Below are positions 23,264 through 31,294 of a stretch of 43,894 bases of DNA, in pieces. The DNA is from Candidatus Bathyarchaeota archaeon (GTDB taxonomy: Archaea > Thermoproteota > CALKCG01 > B24), in NCBI GenBank assembly GCA_021161255.1, contig JAGHAZ010000032.1, positions 1 through 43,894 of the forward strand, given 5' to 3'. The notes beneath the pieces are model-generated. The model was not told the origin of the DNA. It saw only the letters and a list, made by a program, of their open reading frames with translations, and did no database searches. The number at the start of each line of letters is the position of its first letter. The first letter of the stretch is position 1. A program made the position numbers and the translations under genes.

Positions 23264-23818
23264 TTGGGAGACCTAGGTCGACGGTTTCTGAGGGTTTTGA
23301 CCGATGAGCTTAGGGTTTTGCTTAAAAAGCCAGTTGGGATTCTTGTCAGGGGGGAGCCTTGGGAGACCGTCGTAGAGGTTAGGAGGATCCTAGAGGCCGA
23401 GAAGCCTCCTAAGACTGTGGCGGTCGGAGATGTCGTGTCTGAAACCTTGCTGGAGACGGGTTTAGAAGCCGACTTGTATATCACAGACGCTAAGAGCCTA
23501 CGCGTCGAAAGGGAAGAACCTAAACTAGATGCGATAGTAGACCAGATTCAGACGGTAGTCAATCCTCCAGGCCATATATCGTCCGAGGCCGAAGAGGCTG
23601 TTAGAACATGCTTAAGAAGTAGCCGTAGATGTTGGATTAAAGTCAGGGGGGAGGAGGACCTTTTAGCGTTGGTTGCGATAGCGGAAGTCCCGCTTGGGTC
23701 TGTAGTGCTCTACGGTCAGCCTGGTGAGGGTGTCGTTGTGGTATGCGTCGACGAAGCTGTTAAACAGTGGGCTAGGACGGTTATAGAGTCTATGCCCGTC
23801 GTTCAGGCGAACTGTTAG
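23264..23818 (+). CDS. GTP-dependent dephospho-CoA kinase (DUF359)
   Basis: This family carries out the last step of coenzyme A synthesis in many archaea, using GTP. The 184-aa protein shows the DUF359 pattern: [10 protein letters not shown], then the [13 protein letters not shown] region, [29 protein letters not shown] and [19 protein letters not shown]. It starts at TTG 23264 with a perfect AGGAGG upstream. It is a single gene, tail to tail with hisI, sharing 4 bp at the stops. Confidence 0.85.
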
Positions 23819-24204
23819 CCGTAGATTTTTCTGTGGAAACAGGAGCGGTATCCTTCATGACAGGCGTATCCGACTTGCTCCACCTTAAGTAGGACCGCGT
23901 CGGCGTCGCAGTCGAGGTAAACCTCCTTAACGTACTGTATATGTCCAGATTGCTCACCTTTACGCCAGAGCTTCCACCTAGATAGGCTCCAGTAGTGGGC
24001 TAAGCCGGTTGTCAACGTCTTTATGAACGCCTCCTTGTTCATGAAGGCGACCATCAACACCTCCCCGTTCGAAGCGTCCTGAGCCACGGCGACTACAAAC
24101 CCACCGTTATGCCGGTAGTTGAGGGTCTCCGCAATCCGCTCGGCGTCTTCGAGACTCACAGGGGTTTGCACGGTCGGCTTACCCGGGTTTACGTCGTCCT
24201 CCAT
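23815..24204 (-). CDS. hisI: Phosphoribosyl-AMP cyclohydrolase
   Basis: This enzyme catalyses the third step of histidine synthesis, opening the purine ring of PR-AMP. Zinc and magnesium ligands are visible in VYLDCDADA and [12 protein letters not shown], along with the substrate-loop [20 protein letters not shown] 24204 gives 129 aa, the usual length, with aggagg further upstream. A longer frame to 24279 would be all hisE overlap and shows no likeness. It overlaps the end of hisE by 26 bp and is the last gene of the his operon. Confidence 0.9.
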
Positions 24205-24493
24205 GACCTTTACGCCTCCTACGTATAAGCTCCTTGGGAACCATGTCAGAGGGTATTTCGAGATACGCCAGTAGCACAAGTGTATGATAGATAAGGTCCG
24301 AGGCCTCGTGGACTATCTCGTTCTTCGAGCCACTTCTAGCGGACTCGATGAGCTCCATACACTCCTCTAGAACCTTATCTATCACAGCCTCCAAACCCTT
24401 CGACATGAGACTACTCGTATAGGAGCCCTCGACAGGCTTGTCGCGTCGGCTCTCTATGACCCTGTAAAGCTCATCTAGGAAACACCAGCTCAT
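24179..24493 (-). CDS. hisE: Phosphoribosyl-ATP pyrophosphohydrolase
   Basis: This enzyme catalyses the second histidine step, splitting PR-ATP to PR-AMP. The 104-aa all-helical MazG-like fold shows the metal-binding EECMELIES and the [14 protein letters not shown] helices. ATG 24493 begins 1 nt after the hisD stop, with ggaggg just upstream; the longer frame from 24526 only reads through the end of hisD. hisE and hisI are separate genes here, not a fused hisIE. Confidence 0.88.
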
Positions 24494-24494
24494 G

Positions 24495-25754
24495 CTAAAC
24501 CCTCCTAGCCCTAAGGGCTTCACCATGCCACCTCAACCCCTCGACCTGGGCCAGCCTCTCCGCGGCTTTACAGAGCGTCTTGAACCCTTCGGCATCCACC
24601 CTCTGAACGGTTAAGACTTTCAGGAAATCCAGCGGGGTGAGGCCTGATGAAAACCTAGCCGCCCCACCTGTCGGAAGGACGTGGCTTACACCCGTGGCGT
24701 AGTCTCCAAGCACGGCAGGGGTCAGGGGGCCTAGGAACACAGACCCCGCGTTCCGAACCATGTTTAAAACCTCCTCAGGATTCTCCACGAACAGCTCCAG
24801 ATGCTCAGGCGCGTAAAGGTTCAAGAAATTTAACGCCTCCTCCACGTCCTCCGCTATGAAGATTCCACCTCTTTTAAGGCTTTCCAACAGTCTAGGCTCC
24901 GCCATATCGCCGATAAGCTTCAAAACCTTAAAGGCGAGCCTCTCAGAGGTCGTTACAAGGAGGGCTGAGGAGTTCGGATGCTCAGCTTGAGATAGAAGGT
25001 CTACGGCTATAAGCGCTGGGTCTGCGGAGTCGTCGGCTAAAATCGCTATCTCGCTGGGGCCTGCAGGCAGGTCTAGGCCGACCTCTCCGTACACCAGTCT
25101 CTTAGCCGCCTCGACGTATAGGCCTCCAGGTCCGACGACTTTATCGACCTTGGGAATAGTCTCCGTCCCATAAGCCATGGCCGCGATGGCTTGAGCACCG
25201 CCGACCCTGAAGCCCCGGTCGACACCGGCTATCTTCATAGCGGCTAGAACCTCGGGTCCGGCGTTTCTAGGAGGGGTACACGCTATAACCTCGTCTACAC
25301 CCGCCACCTTAGCCGGCGTAGCGGTCATGAAGACAGTCGATGGGTAGGGGTTAACCCCGCCTGGTACGTAGACGCCCACACGCTCAAGGGGTCTCCAGAG
25401 GACGTGTATGCGTACCCCCTCCGTAGGCGCTATAACCCTATCCTCAGGTAGAAGCTTAGCGCATACGGTTTTCACGTTCTCATGCACCGTCTCTAATGCC
25501 TCACGGGTTTTCCTGTCCAAGGAGCCGTATGCATCATCCATCTCCTCACGGGTTATCTTCAACCGGCTTCTATCCAGCTCCACTTTATCGTAGAGCCGAG
25601 TATACTCTAGGAGAGCCTCGTCTCCTCTAGACCTTACATCGGCTATTATCCTAGCCACCGAGCTGCGTATCTCCTCTAGGTCTAGACCCCTCGCCATCAG
25701 CCTTCTAACATCCGCATCGGTTAAATCGCTTATCCTAACGGGGTTGACTGTCAT
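24495..25754 (-). CDS. hisD: Histidinol dehydrogenase
   Basis: This enzyme oxidises histidinol twice to histidine with NAD, the last two steps of the pathway. The 419-aa protein shows the family blocks YVPGGVNPYPSTVFMTATPAKVAGV, VVGPGGLYVEAAKRLVYG, LPAGPSEIAILAD, the zinc-site QAEHPNSSALLVTT, and NLYAPEHLELF near the C-terminus. It lies 21 bp after hisB and 1 bp before hisE. Confidence 0.95.
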   Translation of the reverse strand: MTVNPVRISDLTDADVRRLMARGLDLEEIRSSVARIIADVRSRGDEALLEYTRLYDKVELDRSRLKITREEMDDAYGSLDRKTREALETVHENVKTVCAKLLPEDRVIAPTEGVRIHVLWRPLERVGVYVPGGVNPYPSTVFMTATPAKVAGVDEVIACTPPRNAGPEVLAAMKIAGVDRGFRVGGAQAIAAMAYGTETIPKVDKVVGPGGLYVEAAKRLVYGEVGLDLPAGPSEIAILADDSADPALIAVDLLSQAEHPNSSALLVTTSERLAFKVLKLIGDMAEPRLLESLKRGGIFIAEDVEEALNFLNLYAPEHLELFVENPEEVLNMVRNAGSVFLGPLTPAVLGDYATGVSHVLPTGGAARFSSGLTPLDFLKVLTVQRVDAEGFKTLCKAAERLAQVEGLRWHGEALRARRV

Positions 25755-25775
25755 ACTTAACCACCCGCATCTATC

Positions 25776-26363
25776 CTACAGCACTCCTTTCGTACTAGGA
25801 ACCTCGTCCTTTAACCCGGGTTCAAGCCTCGACGCCTCCCTCAAAGCTACGGCTAGGGCCTTGAAGAGCGCCTCGAACACGTGATGAAGGTCTCGTCCGT
25901 AGACCCGGGGCACGTGGATCGTGAACCTACCGGTCTGGGCTAGGCTTCGTAGGAAGTGCTCCATGAGGATGGAGTCGAAGCCTTCGACCACGCCCATGGG
26001 TAGAGACTCGACGTGCAGGTAGGGTCTACCGGAGAGGTCGAGGGATACCTCGGCTAAAGCATCGTCCATAGGTATGGACGCGAAGCCGAACCTACGTACG
26101 CCCCTCCTATCCGCTAGGGCTTTATCCAGCGCCTCACCTAGGGTTAAGGCCACGTCTTCGACGAGGTGGTGGACGCTAGGGGTCTTCAAGGTCTCGGCCT
26201 TTACCCTCAGGTCGATGCGGCTGTGCTTAGAGAATGTTTCTAGCATATGGTCGAAGAACGGGTGTCCGGTATTCACTTTAGACAGGCCTACGCCGTCTAG
26301 GTTCAGCTCGACCGTTACATGCGTCTCCAGGGTCTTCCTCTTACATATAGCGGACCTAGTCAT
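25776..26363 (-). CDS. hisB: Imidazoleglycerol-phosphate dehydratase
   Basis: This enzyme removes water from imidazoleglycerol phosphate. The 195-aa monofunctional form has the manganese-site histidine motifs HPFFDHML, VHHLVEDVALTLGEAL, and DLHHVFEALFKALAVAL near the C-terminus, plus MDDALAEVSLDLSGRP in the middle. It has no histidinol-phosphatase domain. It overlaps hisA by 8 bp. Confidence 0.94.
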   Translation of the reverse strand: MTRSAICKRKTLETHVTVELNLDGVGLSKVNTGHPFFDHMLETFSKHSRIDLRVKAETLKTPSVHHLVEDVALTLGEALDKALADRRGVRRFGFASIPMDDALAEVSLDLSGRPYLHVESLPMGVVEGFDSILMEHFLRSLAQTGRFTIHVPRVYGRDLHHVFEALFKALAVALREASRLEPGLKDEVPSTKGVL

Positions 26364-27078
26364 CTCGAGCAGCCTCCATAGCCTCTCTAAGGCTGAATAA
26401 ACCGGTATATAGGGCTTTACCGATAACCACTCCGTATACGCCTAGGTCTCTTAAAACCGCTATATCAGACAGCGACGAGACCCCTCCGGCGTATATGAGG
26501 GGTTTGTTTAAGACGCTCAGCAGACGCTTCAGGTTCTTCACGTCTATCCCCGAGGCTAACCCCTCATGCTCCACGTCTGTATATAGGAGCCCCCAGAACA
26601 TATCCGGGTCTAGACGGCGGAGAACGTCGTAGACCGTGACTCCAGCAGACTCGGTCCACCCTCTTTTGACGACGAAACCCGACTTTGAGTCTATGGCGAC
26701 TATAACCTTATCGGCTCCGACCGAGCCGACGATAAGCCTGAAAAGCCTAGGGTTCTCGTAGACGACGGTCCCGAGAACTATACGGTAAGCCCCCGATTCG
26801 ACCAGGCTTAAGGCGTCTCTGAGTGACCTGATGCCGCCGCCTACCTGAACAGGCACGTCGACACGTCGGATTATCTCTAGTATCAGCGGCCTGTTCACCG
26901 CAACACCCTCGATAGCACCGTCTAGGTCAACCACGTGTAAGACCTCGGCTCCCTCTTTAACCCAGTGTTCGGCAACTTCAACCGGGTCTTTGGATACGGT
27001 CAACCCTGTCCCAGGCTGGCCTTGAACCAGTTTAACGCAACACCCGTTTTTTATATCCACGGCTGGTATGACCTTCAT
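26356..27078 (-). CDS. hisA: ProFAR isomerase
   Basis: This TIM-barrel enzyme of the fourth histidine step is also called phosphoribosylformimino-AICAR ribotide isomerase. The 240-aa protein begins MKVIPAVDIKNG with the first catalytic Asp, then LHVVDLDGA, VQVGGGIRS, the second Asp in YTDVEHEGLASG, and phosphate-binding YAGGVSS and VIGKALYTG. It is HisA and not HisF by the VDIKNG and TDVxxxG marks. It overlaps hisG by 4 bp. HisF itself is not in the window. Confidence 0.93.
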   Translation of the reverse strand: MKVIPAVDIKNGCCVKLVQGQPGTGLTVSKDPVEVAEHWVKEGAEVLHVVDLDGAIEGVAVNRPLILEIIRRVDVPVQVGGGIRSLRDALSLVESGAYRIVLGTVVYENPRLFRLIVGSVGADKVIVAIDSKSGFVVKRGWTESAGVTVYDVLRRLDPDMFWGLLYTDVEHEGLASGIDVKNLKRLLSVLNKPLIYAGGVSSLSDIAVLRDLGVYGVVIGKALYTGLFSLREAMEAARDD

Positions 27079-27935
27079 GGTATAACCCTCTCTATAGGTA
27101 TTACCAGCAGGTCTTTGGCGCCGGCTTTTTTAACGAGGTTTACGACCCGGTATACCTCATCCTCGTCTATGACCGTGTAGACCTCCCACATCCTCTCCTC
27201 AGATTCGACCTCGGCTATCGTCGGACCCGCCATGGCAGGTAAGACCGATAAAACGTCTTTCAAAAACCTATCCGGCACGTTCATCATGAGCAGCTTCTTA
27301 CCCTTACCCCTTAGGACGCTTTCTATCGCGAGCTTAATCTCCATAAGCTTATCCCGCTTCACCTCGAGGCTTTTCTTGTTGGCTATGAGACGTGCTGAAG
27401 ACTCCAGTATGACCTTCAGGGGTTTCAAACCGTGGGTTTTAAGGGTCGTCCCAGTGCTCGAGATGTCTATGATGGCGTCTGCCACCTTTAGGTGAGGCAT
27501 AACCTCAGCCGCACCCGTTATCCTTATCACCTCCGCCTCTAAGCCAAGCCTTCTGAAGAAGTTTGAGGCTATGTTAACGTATTTGGTCGCGACCCTTAGC
27601 CCAGGTTTCAGGTCGCTTAAATCCTCGATCCCGCTGTTTCTCATGACGGCTAGCACAAGCTCGGCTCTACCGAACTCTAGGTCTAGAAGCTCCTCGACGT
27701 CTGCGTCCGCCTCCACCACGTAATCGTGACCCGTCACCCCTAGGTCGGCCGCACCAGCCTCCACGAGACTCGGTATATCAGCCGCCCTAGCGAATATCAC
27801 GTTTATCTCAGGGTCGTTCGTCCGCCCGTAGAGCATACCCCTATCGATAACCCTAATACCGGCTTTCTCAAGCAAGTCGAGGGCAGGCTCGTGAAGCCTC
27901 CCCTTGTTAGGTAGGGCCAATATCACCGTGTTCAC
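27075..27935 (-). CDS. hisG: ATP phosphoribosyltransferase, long form
   Basis: This is the first and feedback-controlled step of histidine synthesis. The 286-aa chain has the catalytic domains (ALPNKGRLHEPALDLLEKAG, DLGVTGHDYV, and the PRPP loop DIISSTGTT with one Asp-Ile before it) and a C-terminal ACT-like domain (about 215-286). It is therefore the long form that works without HisZ and binds histidine for inhibition. The GTG at 27935 overlaps the hisC stop as GTGA. Confidence 0.94.
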   Translation of the reverse strand: MNTVILALPNKGRLHEPALDLLEKAGIRVIDRGMLYGRTNDPEINVIFARAADIPSLVEAGAADLGVTGHDYVVEADADVEELLDLEFGRAELVLAVMRNSGIEDLSDLKPGLRVATKYVNIASNFFRRLGLEAEVIRITGAAEVMPHLKVADAIIDISSTGTTLKTHGLKPLKVILESSARLIANKKSLEVKRDKLMEIKLAIESVLRGKGKKLLMMNVPDRFLKDVLSVLPAMAGPTIAEVESEERMWEVYTVIDEDEVYRVVNLVKKAGAKDLLVIPIERVIP

Positions 27936-29002
27936 GAGGAACCCTCCTCTAAGACGGCTTTCAAAGATTCGAGAAATCTATCGTTCTCCTCAGGCGTCCC
28001 GACGGTTACTCTTATGAAGTCTCCCTGGAAACCCTCGAACCTGCCGAAGCGTCTGACCGAGACACCGAGTTTAAACAGTCTATCGGCTATCTCCTCGGAG
28101 GTTAAACCGGTTTCGGAGACGTCGACCAGTATGAAGTTTGTTTCAGAAGGATAGGGTTTAACCCCGTCTAGCCGTTTAAGAGCCTCGTATAGGCGGTTTC
28201 TAGCCTCTTTTATAGCAGAAATCCGTTGTAAGACTAGGTCGCGGTTCCTTAGGACAGCTAAAGCAGCCTCCTGCGCTAGGAGGTTTACGTTATACGGCGG
28301 CTTAACCTTCAGAAGTGTTTGAATTATCTCCTCAGAGGCTATGCAGTATCCGACCCTTAAACCGGCTAAGCCGTAGGCCTTCGAGAACGTCCTCAAAACC
28401 ACCAGGTTATCGTACATACCCAGCAGGTTTAAGGCGGTTCTACCCGAGAACTCGTAGTAGGCTTCGTCTACGACCGTCAGGACCCCGAGCCGAAGCAACC
28501 TCTCGACCTGCTCTACCGGAAAGCCTACACCGGTCGGGTTGTTAGGGTTCGATATGAAGAACACGTCGACAGAGTCGGATAGGATCTCCAGGGCCTTATC
28601 TAGGTCTAGGGTGAAGTCTGGGTTTAACGGTATCCTCTCGACCACTCCACCAGCTACTACCGCGGACCTCTCGTACATCGGGAAGGTCGGGTATATCGTA
28701 GCAGCCTTAGTCCCTTTATCCACATACGCCTTGACTATCAGGTCTATGAGCTCGTCCGAGCCTGAGCCTACGAGAACGTTTTCGGCTTCAACACCGGTGA
28801 GGTGGGCTATCGCCTCCCTCAGCCTTCTCGGCTCTGGGGGGTACCTGTTCACGAGCCTAGCCGCCGTGCATATGGCTTCCACGACCTCCTCCGGCGGAGG
28901 ATACGGGTTTTCGTTAGCGTCCAGCTTCACCATGCCCGCGATTAAGGGCCTCTCCTTGTAGACCGTTTCTGGAAGCTTCTTCCGGGTTTTCAAACCTCTC
29001 AA
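27932..29002 (-). CDS. hisC: Histidinol-phosphate aminotransferase
   Basis: This PLP enzyme moves the amino group from glutamate to imidazole-acetol phosphate. The 356-aa class II aminotransferase shows KLDANENPYPPP, NPNNPTGVGF, VVDEAYYEF, and TFSKAYGLAGLRVGY with the PLP lysine. It is the first gene of the his operon, starting at TTG 29002 (TTG 28993 is possible). Its promoter faces that of the AbrB-ACT regulator across 88 bp. Confidence 0.92.
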   Translation of the reverse strand: MRGLKTRKKLPETVYKERPLIAGMVKLDANENPYPPPEEVVEAICTAARLVNRYPPEPRRLREAIAHLTGVEAENVLVGSGSDELIDLIVKAYVDKGTKAATIYPTFPMYERSAVVAGGVVERIPLNPDFTLDLDKALEILSDSVDVFFISNPNNPTGVGFPVEQVERLLRLGVLTVVDEAYYEFSGRTALNLLGMYDNLVVLRTFSKAYGLAGLRVGYCIASEEIIQTLLKVKPPYNVNLLAQEAALAVLRNRDLVLQRISAIKEARNRLYEALKRLDGVKPYPSETNFILVDVSETGLTSEEIADRLFKLGVSVRRFGRFEGFQGDFIRVTVGTPEENDRFLESLKAVLEEGSS

Positions 29003-29006
29003 CCTC

Positions 29007-29057
29007 TTGTGGGAAAATGGTGGGATGAGGTTCTAATATATCCCACAACTTATAAAT
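29007..29057. promoter_or_regulatory. Shared his / AbrB-ACT promoter region with phased GTGGGA sites
   Basis: A perfect inverted repeat TTGTGGGA (29007-29014) and TCCCAACAA-like arm, exactly TCCCACAA (29041-29048), brackets the hisC TATA (minus-strand gatatatta, about 29034-29042). Another GTGGGA lies at 29020-29025. Copies are 11 and 21 bp apart, one and two helix turns. The plus-strand TATA (cttataaat, 29049-29057) of the regulator gene touches the right arm, and the left arm falls near the expected hisC transcription start. One protein bound here could control both genes. Confidence 0.5.
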
Positions 29058-29090
29058 TTTACCTCACCCTATACCGTTCTGGGAGCCTTC

Positions 29091-29498
29091 ATGCGAATAG
29101 TTAGCGTTCAGAAGATAGACGACAAGGGGAGGCTTTCGATCCCGGTTAAGGTTAGGGAGATCCTCGGGTTGAAGGAGGGTATGAGGGTTCTGCTGGTCGC
29201 GGATGTACGTGAGAGGAGGATCACAGTGAACCCGTTCGCGGATCCTGAGGCTAAGCTTGTCGAGTTCAGGATGAGCCTCGAGGATATACCTGGGGCGTTG
29301 GCTAAAGCCGCCTCCATACTAGCTAGGGAGGGGGTAGACCTGCTTTTTTCCGAGTCCAGAACCCTTAGGAGAGGTGAGCTAGCCGAGTGGATAGCCATAG
29401 CAGACTATTCGAGGTGCGATAAGGACATAGAGGACATCAGGGAGGAGCTTATAAATGAGAGATGCGTGAAAGCTGTAGAGTATAAGTTCCTAGACTAG
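29091..29498 (+). CDS. AbrB-ACT regulator, probable ligand-sensing control of his genes
   Basis: The 135-aa protein joins an AbrB/SpoVT DNA-binding domain (residues 1-47: KIDDKGRLSIPVKVREILGL, VLLVADVRERRITVNPF) to an ACT domain (about 57-134: LEDIPGALAKAASILAREGV, ending CVKAVEYKFLD). ACT domains usually bind amino acids. Its divergent promoter next to hisC and the inverted repeats there suggest histidine- or amino-acid-dependent control of the his operon and of itself. A gggag precedes the ATG. The next gene starts about 12 nt after its stop and is probably co-transcribed. Confidence 0.8.
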   Translation: MRIVSVQKIDDKGRLSIPVKVREILGLKEGMRVLLVADVRERRITVNPFADPEAKLVEFRMSLEDIPGALAKAASILAREGVDLLFSESRTLRRGELAEWIAIADYSRCDKDIEDIREELINERCVKAVEYKFLD

Positions 29499-29510
29499 GA
29501 CGTGGGATCC

Positions 29511-30518
29511 ATGATAAGGGTTATCCAGTACGGCGTAGGGGAGATAGGCTCTAGGATAACCAAAGCCTTGACCTTGAAGCCTTGGGTAGAGGTAGTCGGA
29601 GCCGTAGATATAGACGAGTCCAAAGTGGGTAGAGACCTGGGAGAGGTCGTAGGCCTGGGTGAAAAGCTCGGGGTGAAAGTCTACAGAAGCCTTTCTGACA
29701 CTCTTAGGGAGGTTAAGGCCGACGTGGTCTTACACACCACGAGCTCCTGGCTGAGCATAGTGGAGCCGCAGATAACCGAGATAGTCGACTCTGGGTTGAA
29801 TGTGATATCGACCTGCGAAGAGCTGGCATATCCCTGGAGGAGAAAACCAGAAGCCGCCGAGAGGATAGATAGAGCCGCCCGCGAGAACGGGGTCACTGTT
29901 TTAGGAACAGGTGTGAACCCGGGCTTCGTCCTAGACTCGTTGATACTGACCCTCACATCCGTGTGTATCAGGGTAGATAGAATAGAGGGTTCAAGGATAG
30001 TAAACGCGTCTACTAGGAGATATCCTTTGCAGAGGAAGATCGGCTCCGGTATGACCGTCGAGGAGTTTAAAAAAGCCGTCCAGGGCGGACGGATGGGTCA
30101 CGTAGGTCTCAGAGAGTCCTTCGACATGGTGGCTGATGCGTTTGGATGGAGCTTCGATAGGGTGGAGGAGACTATAGAACCGGTCGTAGCGTCTAGACCC
30201 GTGGAGACAAAGTTCTTCAGGGTTTCACCGGGACGTGTCGTCGGGGTGTCTCAGAGCATATGGGGGATATCGAAGGGCGAGGAGAAGCTTAGGCTTAACC
30301 TCCAGATGTATCTCGACGCCGAGAACCCGAGAGACTCCGTCGAGATAGAGGGAGTGCCTAGCCTGAAATTCAAGGTTGAAGGCGGTATACCGGGTGACGA
30401 GGCTACGGTCGCGATGGTCGTGAACATGATCCCGAAGGTTCTCGAAGCTGAGCCGGGGCTTAAGACTATGAAAGACCTTTCGATACCGTATGCATGGCTT
30501 AAAGAGTTTAAACGTTGA
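29511..30518 (+). CDS. COG3804-type NAD(P)-dependent dehydrogenase (diaminopentanoate dehydrogenase-like)
   Basis: The 335-aa protein begins with a Rossmann unit (VIQYGVGEIGSRITKAL, VVGAVDIDESKVG) and carries the marks of the dihydrodipicolinate-reductase-like COG3804 group: VISTCEELAYPW, VLGTGVNPGFVLDSL, and VAMVVNMIPKVLEAEPGL near the C-terminus. The best-known member, 2,4-diaminopentanoate dehydrogenase, acts in ornithine breakdown, but the other genes of that route are not here, so the substrate is open. ATG 29511 is preferred over GTG 29502. It follows the AbrB-ACT gene closely, which suggests an amino-acid-related role. Confidence 0.72.
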   Translation: MIRVIQYGVGEIGSRITKALTLKPWVEVVGAVDIDESKVGRDLGEVVGLGEKLGVKVYRSLSDTLREVKADVVLHTTSSWLSIVEPQITEIVDSGLNVISTCEELAYPWRRKPEAAERIDRAARENGVTVLGTGVNPGFVLDSLILTLTSVCIRVDRIEGSRIVNASTRRYPLQRKIGSGMTVEEFKKAVQGGRMGHVGLRESFDMVADAFGWSFDRVEETIEPVVASRPVETKFFRVSPGRVVGVSQSIWGISKGEEKLRLNLQMYLDAENPRDSVEIEGVPSLKFKVEGGIPGDEATVAMVVNMIPKVLEAEPGLKTMKDLSIPYAWLKEFKR

Positions 30519-30564: not shown

Positions 30565-31044
30565 TCACTTTATTTTCGAGAGAAGCTTCACGTGATCCAT
30601 CACGTGGTCGGTTTTAAAGCCTTTATTTGCCAAGAAGCTTCTTAGGTTTTCATCGATCGTAAGAAATATCATTCCATTCGTTACGGATGTTGCGTATAGT
30701 AGGTTGTCTATGTTATCTTTATGCCCTAGGGCCCGTAATTTGAAAGCTAGCGCTATGGCATCGGAGGAGGGCATAATCCACCTATAAAAGCCGCTTATAA
30801 GCAATGATCTTACAGCATCCTCAACTATCTCCTTGACTTCTAATCCTAAACGTAGGCTTTCTCTATACACTTTCCCTATGACCTCGACCCAAACTAATGG
30901 TAGACAATAAAAACTCACCTTCCCTCTTAATGCAGCTTCTCTGAGCTCTTTTATATGCCCATCGAGTAATCCCTCTACCTCTATTCCAAAAGACGGGAGA
31001 ATGTATGTTGAATCAAGCAACACCTTAAGACCCGTATAACTCAT
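30565..31044 (-). CDS. vapC: PIN-domain toxin, VapC family
   Basis: A predicted ribonuclease toxin. The PIN acidic residues are in place: Asp in VLLDSTYILP, Glu in VWVEVIGKV, Asp in LGHKDNIDNLLYATS, and Asp in FLTIDENLRSFL. The ATG at 31044 gives 159 aa and has gggag a few bases upstream; GTG at 31023 is an alternative start right after the antitoxin stop. It overlaps vapB by 20 bp. Its 3' end is close to the convergent dehydrogenase gene. Confidence 0.82.
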   Translation of the reverse strand: MSYTGLKVLLDSTYILPSFGIEVEGLLDGHIKELREAALRGKVSFYCLPLVWVEVIGKVYRESLRLGLEVKEIVEDAVRSLLISGFYRWIMPSSDAIALAFKLRALGHKDNIDNLLYATSVTNGMIFLTIDENLRSFLANKGFKTDHVMDHVKLLSKIK

Positions 31045-31282
31045 CCTGCTCCCTCTCAGATTCTCTCTCAAACTCTTCGACGGTAGTCTTCGACCACTTT
31101 TTAACCTTAAGGGCCAATGCCAAGGGATCAGGTATGAATTCCAATATTAACCTCCTACCGTTAATTCTCATTATAACCCTATCACCCTCGCTTATGCCGA
31201 GCGATTTAATGACTTTTTTAGGTATATACACGGCCCCCTTCTTACCTACTTTAACGATGGTAACCTGGTTCAAATAATTCAC
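31025..31282 (-). CDS. vapB: AbrB/MazE-type antitoxin, VapB
   Basis: This small antitoxin has an N-terminal swapped-hairpin DNA-binding domain (TIVKVGKKGAVYIPKKVIKS, ISEGDRVIMRINGRRLIL) and an acidic, helical C-terminal tail (TTVEEFERESEREQDELYGS) of the sort that wraps the toxin. ATG 31294 would be the longest start, but the TATA box at about 31303-31312 predicts transcription beginning near 31284, so GTG 31282 (85 aa, leaderless) is preferred. The repeats in its promoter suggest self-control. Confidence 0.78.
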   Translation of the reverse strand: MNYLNQVTIVKVGKKGAVYIPKKVIKSLGISEGDRVIMRINGRRLILEFIPDPLALALKVKKWSKTTVEEFERESEREQDELYGS

Positions 31283-31294
31283 CGGAAAAAACAT

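Follow-up and report, generated by a model that had tools for sequence, protein, structure and literature searches.

Does the short gap between a histidine operon and a divergent gene, whose product joins a DNA-binding AbrB domain to an ACT domain, hold the operator of a feedback circuit for histidine synthesis? The locus comes from a metagenome-assembled archaeal genome, G000, which consists of 85 contigs and is 95.6% complete; the window, the whole stretch of DNA that we analyzed, is its 43,894-bp contig C32. In this archaeal phylum, his genes often lie in operons. Here the operon runs in the order hisC, hisG, hisA, hisB, hisD and hisI-like, and the AbrB-ACT gene is divergent from it:

23815 to 27078, minus strand: hisA, hisB, hisD and hisI-like genes, the remainder of the his operon; open reading frames assigned by sequence recognition rather than by profiles
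27075 to 27935, minus strand: hisG, long form, identified by sequence
27932 to 28993, minus strand: hisC, first gene of the operon (TIGR01141, 354.7 bits against a cut-off of 276.55), start placed by conservation
29091 to 29498, plus strand: AbrB-ACT regulator gene, encoding P0001 of 135 amino acids (Pfam ACT, MazE/AbrB and TIGR01439 above cut-off)
29511 to 30518, plus strand: 2,4-diaminopentanoate dehydrogenase-like gene (Pfam DAP_DH_C, 167.1 bits)

The dehydrogenase-like gene follows the regulator on its 3' side only in G000, in G001 of the same genus and in G002, the more distant relative that we used for close footprinting; it would belong to the same transcript as the regulator. Near the regulator locus, a MazE/AbrB-like antitoxin gene (31025 to 31294) overlaps a weak PIN-domain gene (30565 to 31071), both on the minus strand; this pair (30565 to 31294) is likely a VapBC-type toxin-antitoxin module.

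The two-domain architecture that the first-pass annotation had read from the protein was recovered by profile searches. P0001 scored above cut-off for the AbrB/MazE looped-hinge domain (PF04014, 25.1 against 24.7; TIGR01439, 29.9 against 28.3) and for the ACT domain (PF01842, 35.1 bits against 27), with strands and helices modeled in the order E-H-E-E-H-E at residues 56-134. The AF2 model shows an AbrB-like N terminus and a canonical beta-alpha-beta-beta-alpha-beta ACT domain at the C terminus; because it was built from an alignment of two sequences and only one model of five was confident (pLDDT 83, the others 33-38), we used it for fold order only. Foldseek matches of the model were ACT-domain proteins, including serine-bound phosphoglycerate dehydrogenase. 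Residues 1-132 aligned with positions 1-132 of the 136-position NF006352/PRK08577 profile, scoring 132.2 bits against an equivalog cut-off of 140.

The gap in front of this gene contains an array of GTGGGA half-sites and a TATA element:

29009 to 29014, plus strand: half-site 1, GTGGGA, within TTGTGGGA (29007 to 29014), the first of the two arms of the outer inverted pair
29020 to 29025, plus strand: half-site 2, GTGGGA, 11 bp after half-site 1; half-sites 1 and 2 make up the conserved tandem
29041 to 29046, minus strand: half-site 3, GTGGGA (TCCCAC on the plus strand), 21 bp after half-site 2, in the second arm of the pair (29041 to 29048)
29049 to 29060 region, either strand: near-palindromic TATA element, CTTATAAATTTT, usable both ways by its sequence, with a putative promoter role

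Three sites with steps of 11 and 21 bp had been reported here, and we found them at 29009 and 29020 on the plus strand and 29041 on the minus strand; the inverted pair TTGTGGGA/TCCCACAA, formed by the outer two, is indeed perfect. The window holds 32 copies of GTGGGA, which corresponds to 0.064 expected per 88 bp and, at this density, to a probability of about 4e-5 for at least three in 88 bp. Among dinucleotide shuffles of the 88 bp, three sites arose in 0 of 5000 and an 11-bp tandem in 1 of 20,000. One further GTGGGA, at 29502 right before the dehydrogenase gene, lies outside the array.

Placement of the sites relative to the promoters depends on where hisC begins. The gap length of 88 bp given by the first-pass annotation holds if hisC starts at the TTG at 29002, but this codon is TCG in G001, whereas a TTG at 28993 is kept in both G001 and G002. 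Because the codon at 29002 is not conserved even within the genus, we placed the start at 28993, the more likely choice on sequence, which widens the gap to about 97 bp. The TATA element retains 11 of 12 bases in G002. Archaeal transcription is expected to start about 25 bp from TATA. The earlier description of the sites as lying over both promoters was thus approximate: the site at 29041 does abut the shared TATA element, but those at 29020 and 29009 would fall around the point where his transcription is expected to begin, or shortly beyond it, upstream of the TATA element as used by the regulator gene.

Phylogenetic footprinting of this gap, which had been proposed as a check, showed that the sites are kept as a block between genera. 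Between G000 and G002, hisC is 62% and the regulator 76% identical, and all 18 site bases are unchanged as compared with 34 of 67 other gap bases (Fisher test, 3.5e-5). At wider range, relatives of the AbrB-ACT protein were found in 85 of 398 genomes of the phylum. Neighbor analysis identified 21 loci where the gene diverges from his genes, the nearest being hisC, hisZ, hisG or hisA; nine family-level groups are represented (f1, f9, f16, f19, f24, f26, f30, f31 and f37). This count includes L083 (f9), where a simple ORF caller missed hisC and which reads like the other f9 loci. All 21 his-divergent promoters carry TGGG-N7-TGGG on one strand at exactly 11 bp (shuffles: mean 0.17 of 21, maximum 2), and most also have a third, inverted core at 10, 21 or 23-24 bp. 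Since the 11-bp step is invariant while the spacing of the third core varies, the one-turn TGGG tandem is the constant feature; a palindrome of four half-sites as the general operator was rejected in favor of two direct sites at 11 bp.

The tandem is also present at his promoters when the regulator gene lies elsewhere in the genome, as in G019 (f2), G114 (f36) and two f7 genomes (G007 and G138), which shows that it belongs to the his operon and not merely to the gap beside the regulator. Counting these genomes, 12 family-level groups have the 11-bp TGGG tandem at his promoters, the distribution expected of the conserved operator of a local his regulator. The strict form, GTGGGA-N5-GTGGGA, has 89 matches in the 398 genomes, with no visible enrichment over the reversed control. 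Twenty-two of the 89 are found 1.0-1.3 kb upstream of hisG (located with relatives of the window's hisG as query), where hisC or hisZ begins; the rough expectation is well below one. Fifteen f7 genomes have exactly one strict match, which lies upstream of hisG in 14; in the remaining genome, G192, hisG was not located and the gene after the match reads as HisZ. Every f7 genome with both a detected regulator and a located hisG has the tandem at his (11 of 11). In f7 and G114 it sits just upstream of TATA, and the f7 regulator's own promoter lacks it (0 of 12).

The looser TGGGA-N6-TGGGA had four matches in the window's genome, compared with 12 of the reversed control pattern; a large regulon there was rejected, as only the match at the his locus adjoins genes with an obvious link. 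Another match, C27:15043, precedes a TATA-like element of a gene for a membrane or secreted protein and is probably due to chance. Strict matches inspected outside his loci (L162, L163, L171, L172 and L173) fell in coding sequence or a tRNA-like stretch, or had unrelated genes nearby.

The f7 hisZ genes have an unusual beginning. At L138, L139, L146, L176 and L180-L190 there is no in-frame ATG, GTG or TTG near the conserved N terminus; instead, a short ATG frame is linked to the HisZ frame at +1 through a conserved AGGAGG-AAT-TTA-G-TTC, and an in-frame TAG, replaced by TAC in L177 and L178, stands right before the HisZ frame. This geometry resembles the prfB +1 frameshift site, and a programmed frameshift or an unusual start is possible.

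A signature in the ACT domain separates the regulators linked to histidine genes or to an importer from the rest. The triplet AEW (A98, E99 and W100 of P0001) is present in all 38 his- or importer-linked regulators and in none of 43 others, which carry AEC, GEC or similar and form one clade (SH-aLRT 98, from a short alignment). Members of this sister clade occur in other gene contexts with no his link, often beside a gene that we take to be DUF72-like. None of the nine sister-clade genomes with a located hisG (G015, G023, G073, G094, G136, G207, G225, G231 and G348) had a strict tandem at his. The hisG search gave no match in f5 genomes, nor in most of the f14 genomes searched. At seven f5 sister-clade loci (L049, L053, L054, L056, L062, L065 and L066), an 11-bp TGGG tandem precedes the regulator gene itself; these AEC/GEC-type genes adjoin the DUF72-like gene, in genomes without detectable hisG. 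Because these loci keep the tandem, reading of TGGG appears to be older than the link to his or to have been kept on retargeting.

The importer-linked regulators come from three f27 genomes without a hisG match. There, the genes that diverge from an AEW-type regulator encode a family-3 amino-acid ABC importer. It comprises a family-3 solute-binding protein and permeases of His/Glu/Gln/Arg type, and two of the three genomes also have an annotated ATPase; the gap between regulator and importer holds TCCCAC-N4-GTGGGA. The best profile for the importer, lysine/arginine/ornithine, scored below cut-off. That the importer version occurs in genomes without detectable hisG strengthens the link to histidine supply, and a switch from synthesis to uptake would be the pattern expected of a regulator of that supply.

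The reading that we consider likely is that P0001 is a one-component DNA-binding regulator of histidine supply, acting as a repressor with histidine as its likely ligand. Sequence evidence is strong for the array and for its conservation, for its attachment to his promoters whether or not the regulator gene lies beside them, and for the two domains; that P0001 binds the array, which ligand it senses and that it represses rather than activates are our inferences. The feedback circuit for histidine synthesis proposed at the outset gains support from the conserved sites at his promoters and from the importer-linked version, with histidine probably the co-repressor. AbrB-type dimers would read TGGG half-sites on one face of the DNA, the operator core being two direct half-sites 11 bp, or one helical turn, apart, supplemented here by the inverted third. 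The ACT domain would sense an amino acid, most likely histidine, and histidine-bound P0001 would occupy the array beside the TATA element common to both genes and across the region where his transcription starts. Such occupancy would hinder TBP/TFB or polymerase at his, as well as the BRE side of the promoter that serves the regulator gene, shutting off both that gene and the his operon until histidine falls and the protein is released. The weak point of this reading is that five incomplete genomes carry the site at his although no regulator was detected in them; the f7 regulator promoters that lack the tandem also count against it, as does the importer profile that stayed below cut-off.

Considerably less probable is a circuit with the same protein, sites and target that responds to a ligand other than histidine (a pathway intermediate or a different amino acid), or that activates when histidine is scarce. 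ACT domains bind many ligands, the profiles of the f27 importer fit polar or basic amino acids in general, and the position of the tandem just upstream of TATA in f7 and G114 makes activation possible there. Against this, his genes are the constant partner across the 12 family-level groups. Repression is favored by the position of the sites, which are at the expected start or beyond it in the window, G019 and G011; in the window, one site also abuts the shared TATA.

It is improbable that another protein reads the tandem and that AbrB-ACT is merely a neighbor in the same promoter region. Five genomes with the tandem at his (G011, G096, G144, G174 and G192; 74-95% complete) do suggest such a reader, having no regulator detected even by profile search, but assembly gaps are a plausible cause of its absence from these incomplete genomes. 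Among f7 genomes without a detected regulator, moreover, three of eight have the tandem and five of eight do not, an association between regulator and tandem with a hypergeometric P of about 0.005, and for genomes of other families that lack the regulator, the inspected his regions showed no tandem. The tandem goes with the regulator too, and not with his alone, because the seven f5 genomes without hisG keep it before the AbrB-ACT gene. Finally, a bipartite TGGNA motif has been described for the sites of AbrB proteins, including B. subtilis AbrB (PMC11135676).

That the array reflects chance occurrences of a hexamer that is fairly common, as the 32 copies in the window and the unenriched genome-wide tandem could suggest, carries almost no weight against the improbable cluster, the block conserved between genera, the same step at 21 of 21 promoters and the 22 of 89 strict matches at his promoters, and the footprint together with the trans occurrences rules it out.

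Histidine-responsive repression by P0001 would have a wider counterpart, which we hold with slightly less assurance. AEW-type AbrB-ACT proteins would be widespread histidine-supply regulators of the phylum that act through the one-turn TGGG tandem and switch to an importer where his is lost, and the sister clade would have been retargeted, with a changed ACT pocket and the same DNA code in f5. This reading yields a protein family whose operator is explicit, whose ligand can be tested and whose regulon is narrow, and the split between AEW and AEC/GEC offers a natural experiment on ligand choice by ACT domains.

Our search of the non-subscription literature returned nothing on AbrB joined to ACT or on archaeal his regulation, and no his-operon regulator described for this phylum. 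Archaeal Lrp/AsnC regulators such as LysM control an amino-acid operon with a helix-turn-helix and a RAM domain; like P0001 they combine DNA binding with a small-molecule-binding alpha-beta domain, but P0001 instead pairs a classical ACT domain with an AbrB domain of the looped-hinge type. The AbrB-type fold is shared with AbrB and SpoVT of Bacillus and with MraZ. AbrB and MraZ lack an ACT domain; AbrB is pleiotropic, and MraZ has two AbrB-like halves and is located in the dcw cluster. The sites read by MraZ are TGGGN direct repeats at intervals of about 10 bp. P0001 is not a MraZ protein, as it has a single AbrB region and scores 18.1 against a cut-off of 23 for PF02381; our reading would bring an amino-acid-sensing regulator under the TGGG code of AbrB-fold proteins. 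HisR, a TrpR-family protein of Firmicutes and other bacteria, regulates histidine biosynthesis and uptake and is often autoregulated (PMC9413887). It combines a TrpR-type helix-turn-helix with a 20-bp palindromic operator, cacTTTAnnnnnnTAAAgtg (PMC9413887), whereas the P0001 locus combines an AbrB fold, an ACT sensor and a TGGG tandem; with no TrpR match (PF01371) in Pfam and this different operator, P0001 falls outside the HisR family. Closest is NF006352/PRK08577, an archaeal AbrB-ACT "hypothetical protein" with no stated function that has the same full-length architecture as P0001, and to this family our reading would give a function.
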